From: a virus
Length of the DNA stretch: 31,032 nucleotides
Virus record (IMG/VR): IMGVR_UViG_3300012931_000058
Span: 1-31,032 of that record
Reading direction: 5' to 3' (one strand)
In this document: positions 124-30,914 of the stretch, piece after piece
Layout: each line of letters begins with the position of its first letter
Numbering within the stretch: position 1 is the first letter of the stretch
Made by a program: the position numbers and the translations under genes
Notes under the pieces: generated by a model
What the model saw: only the letters and a program-made list of their open reading frames with translations
Told to the model about the DNA's origin: nothing
The model's database searches: none

Positions 124-214
124 ACTGTTTTCCGTTATTATTTGAGAAATTACTATTACCATTATTTTGTTTTTTGCACAAAAACAAAGGGTATTACCCA
201 CGCTATTTGAGAAA
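124..214 (+). repeat. Left phage end with two transposase-binding-like repeats
   Basis: ATTATTTGAGAAA lies at 137-149, 13 bp inside the inferred end, and a second copy ATTTGAGAAA at 205-214. The same 13-mer occurs inverted at the right end (30885-30897), so these are likely the Mu A-type end sites (L1 and L2 equivalents). Between them are a 9-bp inverted repeat TTTGTTTTT/AAAAACAAA (166-188) and the palindrome GGGTATTACCC (189-199). A TG dinucleotide typical of Mu termini is at 126-127, two bases inside the end suggested by the target duplication. Confidence 0.75.
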
Positions 215-1691: not shown

Positions 1692-3669
1692 AGAATATTC
1701 TGAAAATTATAACATTGGATTACGTCGTGTTTATAGAATGATAGACCGCGAAGAATTACAAACTTATGTTGATAGCTTGGGAGCTCTACAAATTATCGTT
1801 GATATAAAGAACAATTACTCTAAACTCTCGCAACCACAGAAAGACTATAACATAAAACAAGCCAACGAACGTCTTGGCGAGATGATATTAATCGGTTACA
1901 ACACTCCGACAGCGGGACTAATGAGACAGATTGAACCGATCATCCGACAATATCAGGCGCTTGGAATTACTTTCAAAGGTAAAAAGTGCGCCGGGGAAAA
2001 CTGGGAAACGAAAGAACATAATAAATATGATATAGTTGGTTATGATTACAGATCGGTTGATAGAAACAAAAAAAGAAGTAAAACAAAAAGCGATCGGAAA
2101 ACGCGCAGCGATAAACATTTTTACCGCGATGAAAATGTAAATAAAGTTTTGTACAGCCACATCCTTCCTCTTGCGGCATATATTTATTTGAACAGCGCGA
2201 AGGCGAACATTCTAAGAACGCTTGACCAAATGATTGATTACTCCAAGACGGATGAAAACTTCTATGAGATAGCCGCGATAAATGAGAAAACATTATATAG
2301 AGTTCTTACCCAGGAATTTGCCGCTCTTGGTTTGGAAGAAAAACACGAATTGCTTAACCACTATAATAAATGGTTTGTAAAGAAAACATACTGCACAGGC
2401 GCATTCACGGATGATATTCCTTTCGGAACCATTTTGATGGACGATAACAAGCGCAACGTTGCCTCGGCATGGGTTTATAATTCAATCACACGCAAGAACG
2501 AACTGAAGCAAATTAAAAGCTGGAATGCAATTGAAAGCCGTACCGGAAAATATCTATCATTCAAAAATGATGTAAAAGATTTTAAAGCGGATGACACAAT
2601 TGAATTGCTTGTAAAAGCTCTCCAGGTAATGGGCTGCACTAAAGTAATAGTTGATAACGGAATTGCATCTTCAAAAGAGTTCCAGAATTTTGTAACCAAC
2701 CTGAATTATGCATTAAGAGAAATTTACGGTTTGAATGCCTACCAGTTGGAATATGAAATTGCGAAGCCGTATCACCCCACGGATAAATCGCCGATTGAAA
2801 GATCATTTGGAATTACAAAAGACGAGCTTGATGTTGATTTCAAAAACTTTGTAGGCGATAATCACAAAGAGGAAGGCATACATAAAACAAATTCTCTAAC
2901 ACCCGATCAGGCGGATTATACTTTTGCTGATTACAATAAAAAATATGAACAATATATTTACGGCTGGTACGAAACTCGTACACGCACATTAACAATCGAC
3001 GGGATGAAGAAAAGGACTTGCATACGCGATTACTTTGATGAGTTATTTCAAACATTTGATTACAAACCGATACCGGAACGCGCCTTACGTTATGCTTTGC
3101 AGAAACAAAAAGATTACACTTTCAAAGGCCGCTTCTATCTCAACATCGAAGGTTATCAGAGTGATTTTATTCCGGTAGATTTTGGAACCGAGTCCTTGCC
3201 TTCGAGCTTTATTAACCGCCGCTACAAAATACTTTACAACCCGGCAAATTTGAACGAAGTGGATCTCTACACAGCCGAATCATTCATCGATAAAATTCAC
3301 GGCATCTATTACGAAGCCGGTCAATTTGTTTGCACGCTTCAATCTGTGCGCGAACTCGGTACAGAGAAACAAAAACTTGTTGCAATTCATAACTCATCGA
3401 GGCAGAAAGAAGCCCGCAAGCTTGCGCTTAAACTTTTACCGATTGATGTAATGGCATCAATAAATGAAGCCGGCAAAGTTGAAGACACTCCAAAGAAAGT
3501 ACAAAAGGAAATTGCGAGAATAATAAACGATGAAATGCCGCTTGAAAAAATTGCGGTTGAAGCTTCAGAAAAAATTGAGCAAAAGAACCACACGTTTTCA
3601 ATAGAGGAATTGGATGAAATAATTAACGAAAAAGAACCCGGCTATTTTGCCGGAACAGAGGAGGAATAA
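1681..3669 (+). CDS. Mu A-type DDE transposase
   Basis: This 662-residue protein matches MuA in length. MuA-type transposases bind the phage ends, pair them and catalyse DNA cleavage and strand transfer in the cytoplasm. The N-terminus (1-30) contains a helix-turn-helix-like region. A basic stretch at about 128-145 precedes the catalytic core. The DDE triad is visible as Asp254/255 in ILMDDNKRN, Asp325 in VIVDNG and Glu373 in KSPIERSFG, with rve-family spacing. A mu-C-like beta domain follows at about 480-540, and a lysine/glutamate-rich tail from about 570 is where MuA contacts MuB and ClpX. ATG 1681 follows AGAGGTG. An in-frame GTG two codons earlier is less likely. It ends 1 bp before the next start. 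Confidence 0.93.
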   Translation: MTPKEYSENYNIGLRRVYRMIDREELQTYVDSLGALQIIVDIKNNYSKLSQPQKDYNIKQANERLGEMILIGYNTPTAGLMRQIEPIIRQYQALGITFKGKKCAGENWETKEHNKYDIVGYDYRSVDRNKKRSKTKSDRKTRSDKHFYRDENVNKVLYSHILPLAAYIYLNSAKANILRTLDQMIDYSKTDENFYEIAAINEKTLYRVLTQEFAALGLEEKHELLNHYNKWFVKKTYCTGAFTDDIPFGTILMDDNKRNVASAWVYNSITRKNELKQIKSWNAIESRTGKYLSFKNDVKDFKADDTIELLVKALQVMGCTKVIVDNGIASSKEFQNFVTNLNYALREIYGLNAYQLEYEIAKPYHPTDKSPIERSFGITKDELDVDFKNFVGDNHKEEGIHKTNSLTPDQADYTFADYNKKYEQYIYGWYETRTRTLTIDGMKKRTCIRDYFDELFQTFDYKPIPERALRYALQKQKDYTFKGRFYLNIEGYQSDFIPVDFGTESLPSSFINRRYKILYNPANLNEVDLYTAESFIDKIHGIYYEAGQFVCTLQSVRELGTEKQKLVAIHNSSRQKEARKLALKLLPIDVMASINEAGKVEDTPKKVQKEIARIINDEMPLEKIAVEASEKIEQKNHTFSIEELDEIINEKEPGYFAGTEEE

Positions 3670-3670
3670 A

Positions 3671-4042
3671 ATGGCTAAACAAGAACTATCAACAGTAACA
3701 GTCGAAGATCTTCTCGACGAGAACGAGCTGCCTGAAAATTTTGAAGACTTACCGGCACGGAAGCAAAAAGAAATTATTATCAACACAGTGCTTTCCGTTT
3801 ACAAGGAAGCTTTGGACTGCATGAGTTTTGAACAGAAAGCAAAAGCTGCTCAGAAAAAATTATCCAACGAAATTAAAAACAGTCCGGCTGCCGTAAAACT
3901 TGCCGCACTCAAAAAAGATACGAGAAGAAACGATGCACAAATTAAACAGCTGCTCAACCGTTACGACGGGATGAAGCAATTAGCAAAAGCGCTTGGTATT
4001 TCGGAAAAGAATTTTTCTCAAATAAAGATGATAGAAGGATAA
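3671..4042 (+). CDS. Unknown helical protein in the place of MuB
   Basis: A 123-residue, mostly helical, charged protein directly after the transposase (GAGGAGGAAT ribosome site, 1-bp gap). In Mu this position holds MuB, a AAA+ ATPase of about 312 residues that captures target DNA. Here there is no Walker A or B motif and the protein is too short for an ATPase. The N-terminal half is acidic (DLLDENELPENFEDLP). The C-terminal half is lysine-rich and ends in an HTH-like segment (LAKALGISEKNFSQIKMI, about 100-120), so DNA binding is plausible. It may assist transposition, but no function can be assigned. Confidence 0.65.
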   Translation: MAKQELSTVTVEDLLDENELPENFEDLPARKQKEIIINTVLSVYKEALDCMSFEQKAKAAQKKLSNEIKNSPAAVKLAALKKDTRRNDAQIKQLLNRYDGMKQLAKALGISEKNFSQIKMIEG

Positions 4043-10694: not shown

Positions 10695-11231
10695 TTATAT
10701 TTTTTTGCTTTGTAAAATAACTTCTCCCAGGTCTTTAATAACAATATCTTTATATTCACCGCCGAGTTTATCCGCTAATATTTTCTGCTGGGCAGGGGTA
10801 ATGCCGAGGAATTTCCAAAGCTTTCTTCCCCTGCCCGCCCCGGAAACATTCAACCAAAAAGCTTTCTGCGCCTGTTCCGGATCGTTGAAGCCAATGAACG
10901 CAGCGGAGTCCGTTACGGAAACAACTTTCATATCGCGAAGCATTTTTCCTTTCACGGTTAAAAATTTATCAGCCGCTCCGGGATAAACATACTGCTTGAA
11001 TTTTTTATATCCTTGAATGAGAAAGCCAAACGTCCCGGTTCTTTTAGAATGGACTATTGAAGCGAGAGCGGGATTCTTCTTAAGTTTTTTATAGAGGGCT
11101 TCGTCGAAAGGACGGAAGAAAGGTCTTTCGGAATAAGCAAATCTATTGCCGTCGTAATCAATGCCTTTGCGAATGTTTTCTTCAATTTGGCCGAGAACAT
11201 AAACACCGGCAACATCCAATAATTTTTTCAT
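10695..11231 (-). CDS. Phage virion morphogenesis protein, Mu gpG-like
   Basis: A 178-residue protein resembling the Mu gpG (gp31, phage virion morphogenesis/tail completion) family. It has an N-terminal helix, a central Lys-rich strand region with GKMLRDMKVVSV (about 94-105), and the AFWLNVSGAGRGRKLWKFLGI segment (about 124-144), which fits the family's conserved G...R.FLG end. gpG proteins help build or cap the head-tail interface. It overlaps the portal gene's stop by 4 bases and is the last gene of the minus-strand packaging operon, stopping tail to tail with 10364-10687. Confidence 0.7.
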   Translation of the reverse strand: MKKLLDVAGVYVLGQIEENIRKGIDYDGNRFAYSERPFFRPFDEALYKKLKKNPALASIVHSKRTGTFGFLIQGYKKFKQYVYPGAADKFLTVKGKMLRDMKVVSVTDSAAFIGFNDPEQAQKAFWLNVSGAGRGRKLWKFLGITPAQQKILADKLGGEYKDIVIKDLGEVILQSKKI

Positions 11232-12424: not shown

Positions 12425-14029
12425 TTATAATTGATAATAATCTTTGATAACTTTTACCGGCTGCTGTTTTTGCCGGATTAATTTTCGCTCGTGAATAAAT
12501 TCGAAAGCGCAAATCATAGAATCCGGAGCGTCATCATCATTGCCTTCTTTTTTTACTCCGCTAAATGAGAAAAATTGTACAAGGAATCTTTCGCCATCAA
12601 CAGTTTTAGAAAATCCCGGCGCAAACTTTACTTTACCCTCGGCATACGCCGATTGAAAATTTTTAGCAAGATCGTTCACTTTATATTTTTTGTATTCAAC
12701 ATGCGGGAACGGCTGGCTTGTTATCTTGCAAAAATTTCTTATGTGCTGTGTCCAGGTACTTTCTTGTGTAACGTTGCCGTCGAACGCGAGACCAGCAATA
12801 CAACTGCGCTTTGCCTCGGTAGTTACATATTCCTTCAAAGTAAAAATTGAAGCGAGTAGTTTATTAGAATCCGCGAAGCTCCGGCATACCGCCATAGGTA
12901 TATAATATTCGTTTGTTGAAGGCGAATACAAAAGTGCGGGGATTGCAGTTGTGTTACCCTTTCCTTTTTTAGATAAGTTTGGATCGCAATAAATTATTCC
13001 GCGTACATCATGCGGCAAAGAAACATATTCGTCATAATCCGAGCGTTTGAAAAAATCACCTTCGGGCGGAGTTGGATTTTGTTGAAAGCCGGTTTGCCAG
13101 TCGCTTTCATCTTTGGGCTTCAACATTTTTTTTAATGCCGCTTCGGTAGTTGCTTTGAATCTTTTAAACCACAGCGCGCCTTTCGGCTGTAGTTTTGTTT
13201 TAATGTTGGACCAAGCTTTATAAGCATAAACGTGCCAATGTTCCGGCAGTAAATTATTTTCATGCTCGTAACGTATTTGATGTATGCACGATGCCGGATT
13301 AAAATCGTTTGCAAGAATTAAGAACACACCGCTGTTGCCTAACGAGTGATAAGCTTCTTGAATCTTTTGCATCCTTAACTGAACAGCGCCGGATGTAAAA
13401 GATGATTCAAGAGTTTCAATGTCATCACCTAACAAAAATTCCGGGCGTCCAAAAAGTTCGGTAAAACCTTTAACCGATCTGCCTTCGCTGAATGCAGCGC
13501 AAACACGTAACGGACGCTGTTGCCCGTCCAACATTTTTATTCTAATAGCATCCGCATTGGCTGTAACAAATTCAAATTTGTAATCGTAACGCAGCCGAAC
13601 ATTTTCTTTCATTAATAAATAAATGTTCAACAATAACCACGATGCTTTAAGAATAATTTCTGAGTAAACACCGGATACATGAATTTTTCCCGTAACCAAC
13701 AACCATATCAAAAGTTTTTTGCCTTCGATAGTTTTACCATGTCCGCGCGGACCTATGAATATATGGATACCAGCTTTACGGCAGACGTCAACAATTTTTT
13801 CAAGCATAACATTCGGTTCGCCGTAATCTTCGTATAGTTCAGGCGGGAAGTACGTCTTATCAAAATACCAATAATCATTATCGCTTCGTTCGCGGCGCTT
13901 TGCGCTTGCTTCTTTTGTTGCATCTTTGCCGGAAAAATTTGTGAGATTAATGCCGAGCGATAATTTCTTAAGCTCGACTTCTTTCTCAAAATCTTTGAAG
14001 CTTAATTCTATGCGGCTAAATTGTTCCAT
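12425..14029 (-). CDS. Terminase large subunit, Mu gp28-like
   Basis: The protein has 534 residues. The ATPase half shows Walker A GPRGHGKT (93-100) and Walker B FLLGDDIE (198-205). The coupling region CAAFSEGRSVKGF is at about 177-189. The RNase H-like nuclease half has its first Asp in IIYCDPN (349) and a second in LAFDGN (417). An acidic cluster near the end (DDDAPDSM) supplies the third. It pumps DNA into the prohead through the portal and cuts the host-phage DNA in headful fashion, as in Mu. It overlaps TerS by 14 bases. All key motifs appear intact. Confidence 0.92.
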   Translation of the reverse strand: MEQFSRIELSFKDFEKEVELKKLSLGINLTNFSGKDATKEASAKRRERSDNDYWYFDKTYFPPELYEDYGEPNVMLEKIVDVCRKAGIHIFIGPRGHGKTIEGKKLLIWLLVTGKIHVSGVYSEIILKASWLLLNIYLLMKENVRLRYDYKFEFVTANADAIRIKMLDGQQRPLRVCAAFSEGRSVKGFTELFGRPEFLLGDDIETLESSFTSGAVQLRMQKIQEAYHSLGNSGVFLILANDFNPASCIHQIRYEHENNLLPEHWHVYAYKAWSNIKTKLQPKGALWFKRFKATTEAALKKMLKPKDESDWQTGFQQNPTPPEGDFFKRSDYDEYVSLPHDVRGIIYCDPNLSKKGKGNTTAIPALLYSPSTNEYYIPMAVCRSFADSNKLLASIFTLKEYVTTEAKRSCIAGLAFDGNVTQESTWTQHIRNFCKITSQPFPHVEYKKYKVNDLAKNFQSAYAEGKVKFAPGFSKTVDGERFLVQFFSFSGVKKEGNDDDAPDSMICAFEFIHERKLIRQKQQPVKVIKDYYQL

Positions 14030-14681
14030 ACTCCTCGCGCAACTTTTGTAATTCTTCGTTGTATATCTTCACAACCATATCGTCGGAGGCATCCGGTTCG
14101 AAACGGCGTATAATGTTTGCAATCAACTGAGCATCTGCACGCTTAAGATGAGATTCAAGTTCAACTCTTTGTATGTGCATTCGTATGCGGGTTGTTTTGT
14201 AAAGAAGATCTATGCGGCTTTGCAATGCAAGCTTTTTATTTATCTCCATTTCAGCTAAACAGTAATTCAGTTGATACCGCATTACCTCGGCTTCATTAAG
14301 ATCATCTGCCATCATCTCTGCAAGCTGCCTTCTGCCTTTCACAGTGGCTTTACCAAGATCGGCTTCGAGAGCAAACTTTTGTAAAGCATAACGCGCCGTG
14401 TGTGTAGGCACATCAAATTTCTTTTCAAGCTGCTCAAGTGTAATCTTCGGATGATTGCTTTTATAGATTGCAATTTTTTTTAACAGCTTCTCGTCGGTAA
14501 AGTCCCGCTTCTCAACGCCGGAATGTTCCGGGTGTTTATGCACGGCGTTGAATACTTGGCGCTCAGTAACTTTAAATAATTGTGCAATGGATTCGAGAGA
14601 CGCGCCCGGATGTTTGCCTTTGTACTTCGCGATCTTAACCCTGTACTCATCATTAAGAAAACCTTTCCTATTACCTTTCAT
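14016..14681 (-). CDS. Terminase small subunit, gp27-like, with two HTH units
   Basis: A 221-residue protein immediately upstream of TerL. The N-terminus has two tandem helix-turn-helix units: LESIAQLFKVTERQVFNAVH (about 29-48) and LEQLEKKFDVPTHTARYALQ (about 82-101). Each is preceded by a similar KIAxYKxxHP motif (KIAKYKGKHP and KIAIYKSNHP), so the second looks like a duplication of the first. A long helical C-terminal region follows. Small terminases recognise packaging DNA and activate TerL. AAAGGTG precedes the ATG. The gene reads out of the 390-bp control region at 14682-15065. Confidence 0.8.
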   Translation of the reverse strand: MKGNRKGFLNDEYRVKIAKYKGKHPGASLESIAQLFKVTERQVFNAVHKHPEHSGVEKRDFTDEKLLKKIAIYKSNHPKITLEQLEKKFDVPTHTARYALQKFALEADLGKATVKGRRQLAEMMADDLNEAEVMRYQLNYCLAEMEINKKLALQSRIDLLYKTTRIRMHIQRVELESHLKRADAQLIANIIRRFEPDASDDMVVKIYNEELQKLREEYGTI

Positions 14682-14734
14682 AACACACCTTTATGCAAAA
14701 ATTTTTATTCAACAATTTTTTACATATTTCTCTA

Positions 14735-14747
14735 ATTATTTGAGAAA
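14735..14747 (+). repeat. Internal copy of the phage-end 13-mer
   Basis: ATTATTTGAGAAA is identical to the left-end copy (137-149) and to the inverted right-end copy (30885-30897). It lies 54 bp upstream of the TerS start, in the same orientation as the left end. Confidence 0.8.
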
Positions 14748-14902
14748 CGATAGAACCTTAAACCCGGCAAAACCGGTACTTTTTGGAAAAGAAAAACGCA
14801 ATAGAAGCCCGTAGAGGGCTTAAAAAGCCATGAACCCGGTATTTTATAGGGTGCAAAACCCGGTAAACATTGTAAACTTTTTTATATAGAAACCGGGTTG
14901 AA

Positions 14903-15005
14903 AGTGTACAGCGAGTAAACAAAAACAGCCCGAAAGTGAACGCTAAGTAAACAGAAGTAAACAAAAACAGCCGAAAAGTGAACGTTAAGTAAACACTTAG
15001 TAAAG
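14903..15005. repeat. Helically phased AGTRNAC heptamer array within 42-bp tandem repeats
   Basis: Two 42-bp units (14914-14955 and 14956-14997) differ at only a few positions. Inside and beside them are eight heptamers starting at 14903 (AGTGTAC), 14914, 14946, 14956 and 14988 (AGTAAAC), 14935 and 14977 (AGTGAAC) and 14999 (AGTAAAG). Start-to-start steps are 11, 21, 11, 10, 21, 11 and 11 bp, all close to whole turns of DNA. An inverted AAACAAAAACAGC/GCTGTTTTGTTT pair adds dyad symmetry at the right edge. Such arrays usually bind a protein cooperatively. Confidence 0.8.
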
Positions 15006-15056
15006 CTGTTTTGTTTGATCGGGCTCTAAAAAGACGGTTTTTGAATAAAACCTTGT

Positions 15057-15082
15057 AAAAAAAACCGCACAAAATCATTGTG
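15057..15082 (-). terminator. Intrinsic terminator overlapping the gp37-like stop codon
   Basis: On the minus strand GCACAA-TGATT-TTGTGC (15082 to 15066) is followed by GG and seven T (15063 to 15057). The stop codon of the 15075-15536 gene lies in the loop. It separates the gp36/gp37 pair from the TerS operon. Confidence 0.7.
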
Positions 15083-15536
15083 CCTCCCAAAACGGAGCGT
15101 AATTCATCCATGTTTCCAGAGCGCTTGTTGCAAAGTCGGAATAGATCCCATCAAAATACATCGGTTGCTCGGCATCCGTATATGTAATTTCAGTAATGGC
15201 GTCGTTTATATTTTCTTGATGGGCATTTAGGAAATTTTGAAAACCCTCAGCGAAAAGTAGTTGCTCTACTTTTTCAATTAATTGCATTGATTTATTTGCA
15301 GCTTCGGTTTGATCTTTAGCGGATCCTATGCATGCAAAAAAAGTAACTTGCGCTCGCCGTAAAACCGGGTAGTTTTTATAATTTTTATTCTTTGGGCGCG
15401 AGGGTTCAACATAGATCCAAACGCATGGAGTGATCGAGGGAAACTCCCCGCGCTTGCCCGGCTCTATTTTAACATCGGGGAGATTTCCTTCAAGATATTC
15501 TTTACAAACTTTTGCAAGCGATGTAAATGTTAGCAT
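15075..15536 (-). CDS. Connector/tail-terminator protein, Mu gp37-like
   Basis: A 153-residue protein with the layout of Mu gp37 (DUF1834)/head-closure or tail-terminator families. An N-terminal helix (FTSLAKVCKEYL) is followed by beta strands (TPCVWIYVEP, RRAQVTFFACIG), a helix (KSMQLIEKVEQLLF), and final strands ending SALETWMNYAPFW. In Mu-like phages gp36 and gp37 are adjacent and join head to tail. That pairing is kept here, with gp36 2 bases upstream. The pair has moved in front of the terminase genes instead of following the capsid gene. Confidence 0.55.
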   Translation of the reverse strand: MLTFTSLAKVCKEYLEGNLPDVKIEPGKRGEFPSITPCVWIYVEPSRPKNKNYKNYPVLRRAQVTFFACIGSAKDQTEAANKSMQLIEKVEQLLFAEGFQNFLNAHQENINDAITEITYTDAEQPMYFDGIYSDFATSALETWMNYAPFWEAQ

Positions 15537-17844: not shown

Positions 17845-17890
17845 TGAGGCGTTCTGCTTTGCAGCGGGCAGGGCGCCTCATTAAAAATTT
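17845..17890 (+). terminator. Terminator after the capsid gene
   Basis: TGAGGCG (17845-17851) pairs with CGCCTCA (17874-17880). Inside is a second hairpin CTGC-TTT-GCAG (17854-17864). A short A run and a T6 tract follow (to about 17893). It lies 25 bases after the capsid stop. Confidence 0.7.
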
Positions 17891-18379: not shown

Positions 18380-18808
18380 ATGTTTGATAAAAGTCAATTT
18401 AAAAGTTTAATAGAGGAAGTGCTAAAAGAATTTTCTCTCTACTCGGAAGCGGCGGTTAATCTTTTACTTGGTACTGCTGCGCAAGAAAGTCAATTCGGCA
18501 CATATCTAAAGCAACTCGGCAATGGCCCGGCGCTCGGTATTTTTCAAATGGAACGTCCTACTTTTAATTGGCTTAAAAATGTTTACGAAAAAAAATATCC
18601 GATCGGAAATTTCGAAGAGCTTAAATACAATCTCAAACAAGCTATCTTATTGTGCCGACTGAGATATAAGGTTATGCCGGAACCATTACCAGCGCATGAT
18701 GATTTACCAGGCATGGCTGTCTATTGGAAGAAATATTACAATACTCAACTTGGCGCCGGAACAATTGAAGAATTCAAAAAAAATTATAAAAAATTTGTAG
18801 GAGTATAA
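18380..18808 (+). CDS. Endolysin, lysozyme/transglycosylase-like
   Basis: A 142-residue protein with the catalytic-type motif GTAAQESQFG (Glu36) and GNGPALGIFQMERPTF (about 47-62), which match phage lytic transglycosylase/lysozyme-like endolysins (GPALGxFQMEP). It would cleave the glycan strands of host peptidoglycan at the end of infection. There is no signal peptide, so it needs a holin for release. The genes right after it encode three small membrane proteins, which fit holin and spanin-type partners. The ribosome site is weak. Confidence 0.75.
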   Translation: MFDKSQFKSLIEEVLKEFSLYSEAAVNLLLGTAAQESQFGTYLKQLGNGPALGIFQMERPTFNWLKNVYEKKYPIGNFEELKYNLKQAILLCRLRYKVMPEPLPAHDDLPGMAVYWKKYYNTQLGAGTIEEFKKNYKKFVGV

Positions 18809-19507: not shown

Positions 19508-19668
19508 AAATATTATCCGTCTGGTCTTTTACTATTTCTGCCTGGCTGTTACAGCTTGTACATATTCAAGAAATTATTGCAATAGTAGCCGGGCTGCTTG
19601 CAAGCGGTTATACAGGATGGAGATGGTTAAGAGATCTTCGGGAAGAGAAAAAGAAGAATAAAAAATAG
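19504..19668 (+). CDS. 54-residue membrane protein of the lysis module
   Basis: The frame starts at ATG 19504 (ATGA overlap with the previous stop) and gives 54 residues. Two short hydrophobic stretches (SVWSFTISAWLLQLV and EIIAIVAGLLASGYTG) precede a very basic tail (LREEKKKNKK). The topology and size resemble small class II holins with a charged C-terminus. It ends 11 bases before the tail tube gene. It completes a run of overlapping membrane-protein genes after the endolysin. Confidence 0.6.
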   Translation: MKILSVWSFTISAWLLQLVHIQEIIAIVAGLLASGYTGWRWLRDLREEKKKNKK

Positions 19669-19679
19669 AGGTAAATAAA

Positions 19680-20615
19680 ATGGAACGCACAGGGTTAAAA
19701 CAAATAGTAATGTGCAACGCAGGGACAATGTTAACAACGCCTGTTAGCCCACTTGCAATAGGTCTGCGGAATGCGGCAACAATGGAGCGAACGCCGCATG
19801 CCGAAATTACGGATTACCGCGGGCGCAAACTGCGCAATATGACAAGCTTCAAAATAGATGCTGAAAGTTTGCAAGCCACGATGCAATTTTTAAAAGCATT
19901 GATCGGATGGACCAACTTAAACTGTGATTCGCAAATTATTACTCGCGAAGCAAACGAAGTCTATCAATTCGCTTCTGTGAATAAACTCGGTCTCGATTTC
20001 GAATATTTGGCGACACATGATAAAGTTTCGCTTAAAGCAATATTGGAAGGCGCGTTCCCTTATGCACAATCCCGGGATATTATTAATTCCGCTAAAACAA
20101 ATACGGCAGTTTCATTTACAGGTATTACCGGCGAGGGAGCGGATTTCACAAAATATAATGCGCCTTACTTCACGACAATTGAAGCGCCGCAATCGACAGC
20201 TCTTTTTTCTTCGCTCTTACAGTTAAGCGAAATAAGTCTCTCAATCAAATCGAAGAATAAAAAATCTTTATACAATTCGTCGATGGTTGATTATGTAACT
20301 TTTGAAATCAAGGTTTCTTCCTACGACAGTGGTATAACGAAGCAACTTGAAATTATTGATAAGGATGTATCCCCGTCGATAAAAATTAAAAAACAGAATT
20401 CAACCTCCTCGTTATATGATATGTTCGACTTCGCAGCAGGAGTACTTACTTTACATGATGAGCATAAAAATACCGACGAAGAAAGAACGCTCCCGATCGT
20501 ATTCAGCGGAGATGTTCCGGTTAACGATATTAGCTTTCTATTCGGCGCAAGCAACGGCGGAGACGCAGCAGATACTGTTGGTGCTAAAGGCGGAACAATG
20601 AAAATTGGTTATTGA
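19680..20615 (+). CDS. Probable major tail tube protein
   Basis: A 311-residue protein rich in beta strands and in Ser/Thr/Asn. It contains an early RTPHAEITDYRGRKLRNMTS segment (about 37-56) and a late FSGDVPVNDISFLFG stretch. It is the first gene of the tail module and has a good AGAGG site. No contractile sheath gene is present in the module, so a siphovirus tube is likely. Direct family motifs are weak: the call rests on position, size and composition. A structural role is fairly safe; tube versus other tail protein is less so. Confidence 0.5.
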   Translation: MERTGLKQIVMCNAGTMLTTPVSPLAIGLRNAATMERTPHAEITDYRGRKLRNMTSFKIDAESLQATMQFLKALIGWTNLNCDSQIITREANEVYQFASVNKLGLDFEYLATHDKVSLKAILEGAFPYAQSRDIINSAKTNTAVSFTGITGEGADFTKYNAPYFTTIEAPQSTALFSSLLQLSEISLSIKSKNKKSLYNSSMVDYVTFEIKVSSYDSGITKQLEIIDKDVSPSIKIKKQNSTSSLYDMFDFAAGVLTLHDEHKNTDEERTLPIVFSGDVPVNDISFLFGASNGGDAADTVGAKGGTMKIGY

Positions 20616-30861: not shown

Positions 30862-30909
30862 TTACTCAAATAATGCGAGAATGGTTTCTCAAATAATTTG
30901 CGCACAAAA
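30862..30909 (-). repeat. Right phage end with two transposase-binding-like repeats
   Basis: Read on the minus strand, ATTATTTGAGAAA (30897-30885) and ATTATTTGAGTAA (30874-30862) mirror the left-end copies. The outer copy lies 12 bp inside the inferred end (TTTTGTGCGCAA). The left copy is 13 bp inside its end, so the two ends are nearly symmetrical. The two right-end sites are 23 bp apart, closer than the 68 bp on the left, an asymmetry also known for Mu. Confidence 0.75.
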
Positions 30910-30914
30910 TATAT
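30910..30914. repeat. Right copy of 5-bp target-site duplication (TATAT)
   Basis: TATAT follows the inferred right end (CACAAAA) and matches 119-123. See the left copy for the reading-frame test. Confidence 0.7.

Follow-up and report, generated by a model that had tools for sequence, protein, structure and literature searches.

Central sites of transposable phages

The strong gyrase site (SGS) of phage Mu must be central in the prophage, where it promotes synapsis of the prophage ends, with gyrase organising the prophage as one supercoiled loop (PMC10052514, PMC3820752). The gyrase motif consists of phased GC arms around a 36-bp core, in a 47-36-47 arrangement, and the right arm of the Mu SGS matters for the binding of gyrase and has anisotropic flexibility (PMC6379681). 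For Pseudomonas phage Ab30, a putative SGS at 18736–18772 has been proposed from an insertion-free gap (PMC5977238).

The region described here is comparable to both sites. Like the Mu SGS, it lies between genes at the centre of a Mu-type transposable phage, among the head genes, and it has the strongest helical base periodicity of its genome in the same scan. With the Ab30 site it shares the status of a candidate, located between genes near the middle of a transposable phage. It differs from the Mu SGS in that its phase lies partly in near-identical heptamers of 42-bp tandem copies and partly in CCCGG clusters, and in its location: it sits in a divergent late region, on the side of terS, and an internal end-type motif lies next to it. 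Unlike Mu, the phage has no MuB gene among the subset of its ORFs that was scanned.

The prophage and its ends

The window, by which we mean the whole 31,032-nucleotide stretch of viral DNA that was analysed (IMGVR_UViG_3300012931_000058), holds a transposase, inverted end motifs and a short duplication, from which we conclude that it represents a whole transposed Mu-type prophage. The features that define it are:

139–149 (+), left-end motif L1, TATTTGAGAAA
204–214 (+), left-end motif L2, TATTTGAGAAA
1675–3669 (+), Mu-type transposase, MuA-family DDE (phrog_310, E 1e-7)
30862–30872 (−), right-end motif R2, one mismatch to TATTTGAGAAA
30885–30895 (−), right-end motif R1, TATTTGAGAAA

The prophage ends are placed at about 124 and 30909, giving a length of about 30.8 kb. 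A 5-bp TATAT duplication, read by eye, flanks them at 119–123 and 30910–30914; when the flanks are joined at TATAT, a histidine-kinase gene (ATPase segment) comes back in frame, also by eye. The end motif has five exact copies in the window (0.11 expected), three of them at the prophage ends and two internal, at 4014–4024 (−) and 14737–14747 (+). The right end of a related phage, G319 (see below), carries the same motif pair as the right end in the window. Internal copies are also present in G319 (L036, 6745) and in a second relative, G154 (L037, 4165, matching the central place). The end-type motif at 14737, common with G154, suggests that the transposase may also contact the phage centre, which we note as a lead only.

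Organization of the central region

The centre of the prophage is laid out as follows:

12425–14029 (−), terminase large subunit, TerL (phrog_38, E 1.4e-26)
14016–14681 (−), putative small terminase subunit, TerS, HTH-like, directly upstream of TerL
14682–15066, central intergenic control region from the putative small-terminase gene to the 153-aa gene (ORF map)
14737–14747 (+), exact end motif TATTTGAGAAA inside the prophage, candidate site of transposase binding
14756–14866, GC-phased arm, CCCGG/CCGG/GCCC clusters every ~10.5 bp (periodicity scan)
14867–14902, candidate core, ~36 bp with little phasing between two phased stretches (phase scan)
14903–15005 (+), array of eight AGTRNAC-like heptamers, period 10.6 bp
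14914–14955 (+), first 42-bp tandem copy
14956–14997 (+), second 42-bp tandem copy
15067–15083 (−), terminator-like hairpin with a T run after it, where the 153-aa gene ends
15075–15536 (−), upstream 153-aa gene, weak match to tail terminator family phrog_123 (E 0.034)

The array thus lies between a terminator-like hairpin (15083–15067, minus strand) and the terminase operon (TerL at 12425–14029, minus strand), as an earlier note made from the sequence alone had placed it, and at 48.2% of the inferred prophage, close to the midpoint as also claimed there. The terminase operon reads leftward, away from the array. The putative TerS is assigned from its place and its HTH-like character, its HTH profile matches being weak and under the cut-off; it has homologs in relatives, as does the 153-aa gene (G319, G154 and others). 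The HTH-like N-terminal part of the putative TerS is duplicated in the window and in G319 (L036, 1959–2624) and single in G154.

All eight heptamer starts listed in the earlier note were recovered by direct reading: 14903 AGTGTAC, 14914 AGTAAAC, 14935 AGTGAAC, 14946 AGTAAAC, 14956 AGTAAAC, 14977 AGTGAAC, 14988 AGTAAAC and 14999 AGTAAAG. Six of them are exact AGTRAAC. The AGTRNAC consensus proposed for all eight is matched by seven, including the first (AGTGTAC), and fails for the eighth, which ends in G. The start-to-start steps are 11, 21, 11, 10, 21, 11 and 11 bp, agreeing with the steps of 10, 11 or 21 bp reported before, and the placement on one face of the helix is borne out by the Rayleigh R of the positions (0.968 at 10.5 bp, 0.987 at 10.6 bp). 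The layout is that of two 42-bp tandem copies plus flanks; the copies, also predicted, are 93% alike over the 40 nt compared.

The heptamer array is real, and neither coding nor chance accounts for it. Seven AGTRNAC sites fall on one strand within 104 bp, compared with at most two in 200 dinucleotide shuffles of the window, and the phased 6-mer score is 36, compared with at most 11 in shuffled sequence. A 117-aa ORF (14758–15111, minus strand) crosses the array; no relative of it was found in the loci searched, so the array is not explained by coding, in agreement with the earlier note. An RNA family reading of the region was rejected, its lone match being a chance one, far under the family threshold. 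The transposase was likewise ruled out as the heptamer binder, since the prophage end motif differs from the heptamer.

The phased region is larger than the heptamers to which it had been assigned, and begins near 14756. The helical periodicity of G+C peaks phage-wide at 14756–14866 (power 15.8, period 10.6, rank fraction 0). This CCCGG arm, which is not a tandem repeat and contains no heptamers, has the stronger phase; the phase of the heptamer stretch shows in C and not in G+C. We read 14867–14902 as a candidate core by inference from the 47-36-47 gyrase motif (PMC6379681), and by eye the region fits two ~47-bp phased arms around a 36-bp core. A mirror-symmetric 47-36-47 two-arm gyrase model recovers the region in the window and in both G319 and G154, and fails at the Mu SGS; given this failure, it is not used as proof.

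Place and phase in related phages

Single-protein searches of viral and genome contigs with terS, TerL and the transposase yielded no close relatives. A capsid search led to one Stygiobacter phage, and from its genome the search was extended to its class; a terminase profile search gave six viral contigs with a good match to the query. TerL identity to the window is 60% in G319 and 50% in G154; transposase homologs are 44% identical in G319 and 31% in G434. A central gap is found at the same place in G319 (398 bp) and G154 (335 bp). The central regions of the window, G319 and G154 do not align, despite TerL proteins that are 50–60% alike.

Arrays of short units were found in five relatives. 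G319 contains AAGTTGACC units in steps of 11, and G154 nine AAGTCAT/AAGTAAT sites in steps of mostly 10 and 11, an alternation averaging about 10.4. G432 has TATTA sites at steps of 10 and 20 bp, G434 TGGACA sites at 53, 21, 21 and 31, and G435 GTTTAAT sites at 11, 10 and 19. The G432 array was seen by eye and with the Rayleigh test, and is not among the tops of the 6-mer score or of the 105-bp Fourier scan. Phase is significant by the Rayleigh test in the window, G154 (R 0.968), G432 (R 0.966) and G434 (TGGACA, R 0.989), and not significant in G319 (p 0.38), G435 (p 0.20) or for a second G434 unit, AATTAAC (p 0.14); the units of all five relatives were picked by eye before the test, which makes these p-values optimistic. 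The arrays lie at 51.0% of G434 and about 52.9% of G435. They occupy the gap g153|terS in most relatives and g115|g153 in G434.

Place and helical phase are therefore preserved in a subset of the family, with the sequence free to vary. The expectation that relatives would carry the same heptamers at the same place and phase holds for place and phase in that subset, and fails for the heptamer sequence. The earlier note had also counted retention of the genes without the repeats as evidence against its reading, and this is the arrangement found in G433, G437, L060 and the Stygiobacter phage, which keep the genes and have neither gap nor array there. It speaks against the idea that control of these genes requires the repeats.

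Other repeats were seen in the family. The viral contig L056 has more short intergenic tandem arrays, at 11060–11150 and 14725–14790 (ACTAAAG/ACTAATG, CTACTAA-like). In G433 (L072, 14400–14560, near the left end), GTTCGTTTAAA repeats lie between the repressor gene and the left end and are possibly operators.

Helical periodicity in Mu and other transposable phages

Whole phage genomes were scanned for the Fourier power of base identity at 9.8–11.2 bp in 105-bp scan windows. In the phage under study the top scan window is 14761–14865, adjoining the heptamers, and in G319, G154 and G434 it falls on the array or in the same operon region. Mu (36.7 kb) served as the positive control: its top scan window, at 17886, lies beside the annotated gyrase cut (17879/17880), in the SGS right arm. 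The homologous central gap ranks first in D108, B3, B23 and StopSmel, second in SfMu and Ab30, and within about the top 1% in PM105, D3112, V1028, martha, Mushu and PeaP1. RcapMu and the Flavobacterium phage fF4 showed no central periodicity signal. In Ab30 (L132), the strong helical periodicity is in the gap at 19557–19775, not at the published candidate 18736–18772.

Across nine independent transposable phages, with the window phage left out, a circular-shift test gave p = 0.0008 for the central excess, a value that is somewhat optimistic since its 47–53.5% band was set after most gap positions had been seen. In six of the nine (Mu, D3112, B3, martha, B23 and StopSmel), no other gap scores as high as the central one. 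The top 0.5% of scan windows cluster in the first 5% and at 45–55% of the genome (eleven phages, including the window phage and G435). The top scan window is not central in P22, HK97 or P2; the second of HK97 lies at 0.495.

A candidate central wrapping site

Taken together, the central place and the physical signature of an SGS-type site lead us to propose, with moderate confidence, that the region at ~14756–15005 is a central DNA-wrapping (or bending) site that works like the Mu SGS and is placed for synapsis of the prophage ends. Most likely it would represent a form of the gyrase-type site found at the centre of transposable phages, one that differs in having unusual tandem heptamers. The proposal draws on what is observed: phasing, a central place, recurrence in relatives with unrelated repeats, and the same periodicity signal at the known Mu site and at the centre of other transposable phages. 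Repeats on one face of the helix would allow the DNA, up to about 250 bp of it, to curl readily round a protein, which we infer to be most likely host gyrase. The heptamers would be part of the wrap, they and the GC-phased arm being the phased stretches that flank about 36 unphased bases. Supercoiling from the central site would then push the prophage out into a single plectoneme loop that has the site at its apex, and the prophage ends would meet at the base of the loop, ready for the transposase, end synapsis being the presumed purpose.

Of the three roles put forward in the earlier note, a central synapsis site comparable to the Mu SGS fits best, because of the central place, a phase kept without the sequence, and a scan that tops at the Mu SGS. 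Several points count against it: the array is confined to part of the family; the heptamers are conserved beyond what phasing requires, and their stretch lacks phase in G+C; RcapMu and fF4 give no central signal; the symmetric two-arm model fails at the Mu SGS; and, gene order being conserved, any late-gene site would be central anyway.

The main rival to the SGS-like reading is a cooperative array, in which a sequence-specific phage (or host) DNA-binding protein would sit on one face, one molecule per turn, with a unit sequence that is phage-specific because the specificity of the binder drifts. Such an array could silence, insulate or organise the prophage centre, or regulate the terminase operon. 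We consider it possible rather than probable. The heptamer columns reach 2.0 bits at the invariant A, G, T and one later A, whereas the spacer columns are mostly below 1 bit and near random; the heptamers are thus more conserved than phase alone needs, which favours a sequence-specific binder. The AAGT core common to the arrays of the window, G319 and G154, the terminator-like hairpin that precedes the array and the several HTH-like proteins encoded in the window (profile searches) point the same way. However, the flanking GC-phased arm has the stronger phase in the absence of heptamers, and the unit sequences of G432, G434 and G435 are unrelated.

Stacked activators typically have phased sites, and the array is 5' of the terminase operon, past the terminator-like hairpin, where sites that activate a late promoter of that operon from upstream would be expected. 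This option, an activator array for the packaging genes in the earlier note, is weakened and in our view unlikely. A search for sigma-70-like promoters, the one type that it covered, found none between the array and terS. The array also shifts between operon gaps: in G434 it lies one gene further upstream, and in G435 about 20 bp separate its end from the start of terS. Several relatives keep the genes with no gap there.

The small terminase subunit might instead recognise the array as a packaging (pac) site, wrapped round the terminase ring. In many headful phages pac lies beside terS, which the array adjoins here (as a putative gene), and a ring of 8–10 subunits would go well with a spacing of about one site per turn. 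Nevertheless, packaging of a Mu-type phage, whose ends carry host DNA, starts from an end, and a site in mid-genome would cut the genome in two; moreover, the array is not adjacent to terS in G434 and is absent from G433 and L060, which keep terS. A packaging role, also among the earlier proposals, is therefore very unlikely.

The iteron-type partition site parC of R1, with its 11-bp repeats and ParR, offers another comparison: like the array of G319, it has 11-bp repeats in tandem that share one face of the helix. Unlike R1 parC, the array in the window has no recognised partition gene among its scanned neighbours, and it is not evident why a phage that is integrated and transposes would need a partition site.

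Finally, a neutral by-product of local tandem duplication in an intergenic gap, with 21- and 42-bp units phased by accident, would suit the two 42-bp copies (93% alike) and the other short tandem arrays of L056, but is highly improbable given that phase recurs in G154, G432 and G434, that the 10/11 alternation of G154 averages about 10.4, and that the CCCGG arm is phased without tandem repetition.

Implications for transposable phages

Beyond the SGS-like reading, the relation of the arrays to MuB may be of interest. The 131-aa gene that follows the transposase in the window (3647–4042) does not match the MuB family phrog_296, which is matched in G433 (no array), G438 (array not found) and also G435 (weak array). 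The same slot holds a 149-aa gene in G319 and a 145-aa gene in G434, neither with a family match. We raise as a somewhat doubtful conjecture that these phages, which seem to lack MuB, carry a distinct central synapsis class: an array whose phase is kept and whose unit differs from phage to phage, beside an internal transposase-type end site. Its binder would be a protein specific to the phage, and not just gyrase, which would assume the domain-organising role that MuB has in Mu.

The generality of SGS-type sites is an open question (PMC8705779), which is turned here into a list of candidate sites. In one simple scan the Mu site ranks at or close to the top, and so do the centres of several transposable phages that are unrelated; candidate sites are now exact in B3, where the stretch is 19656–19760, and in B23, StopSmel, Ab30 and the phage family of the window. 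Such sites could help to explain the constant length and gene order of transposable phages. If such a distinct class proves true, central helical phasing would be a general property of transposable phages, readable from the sequence.
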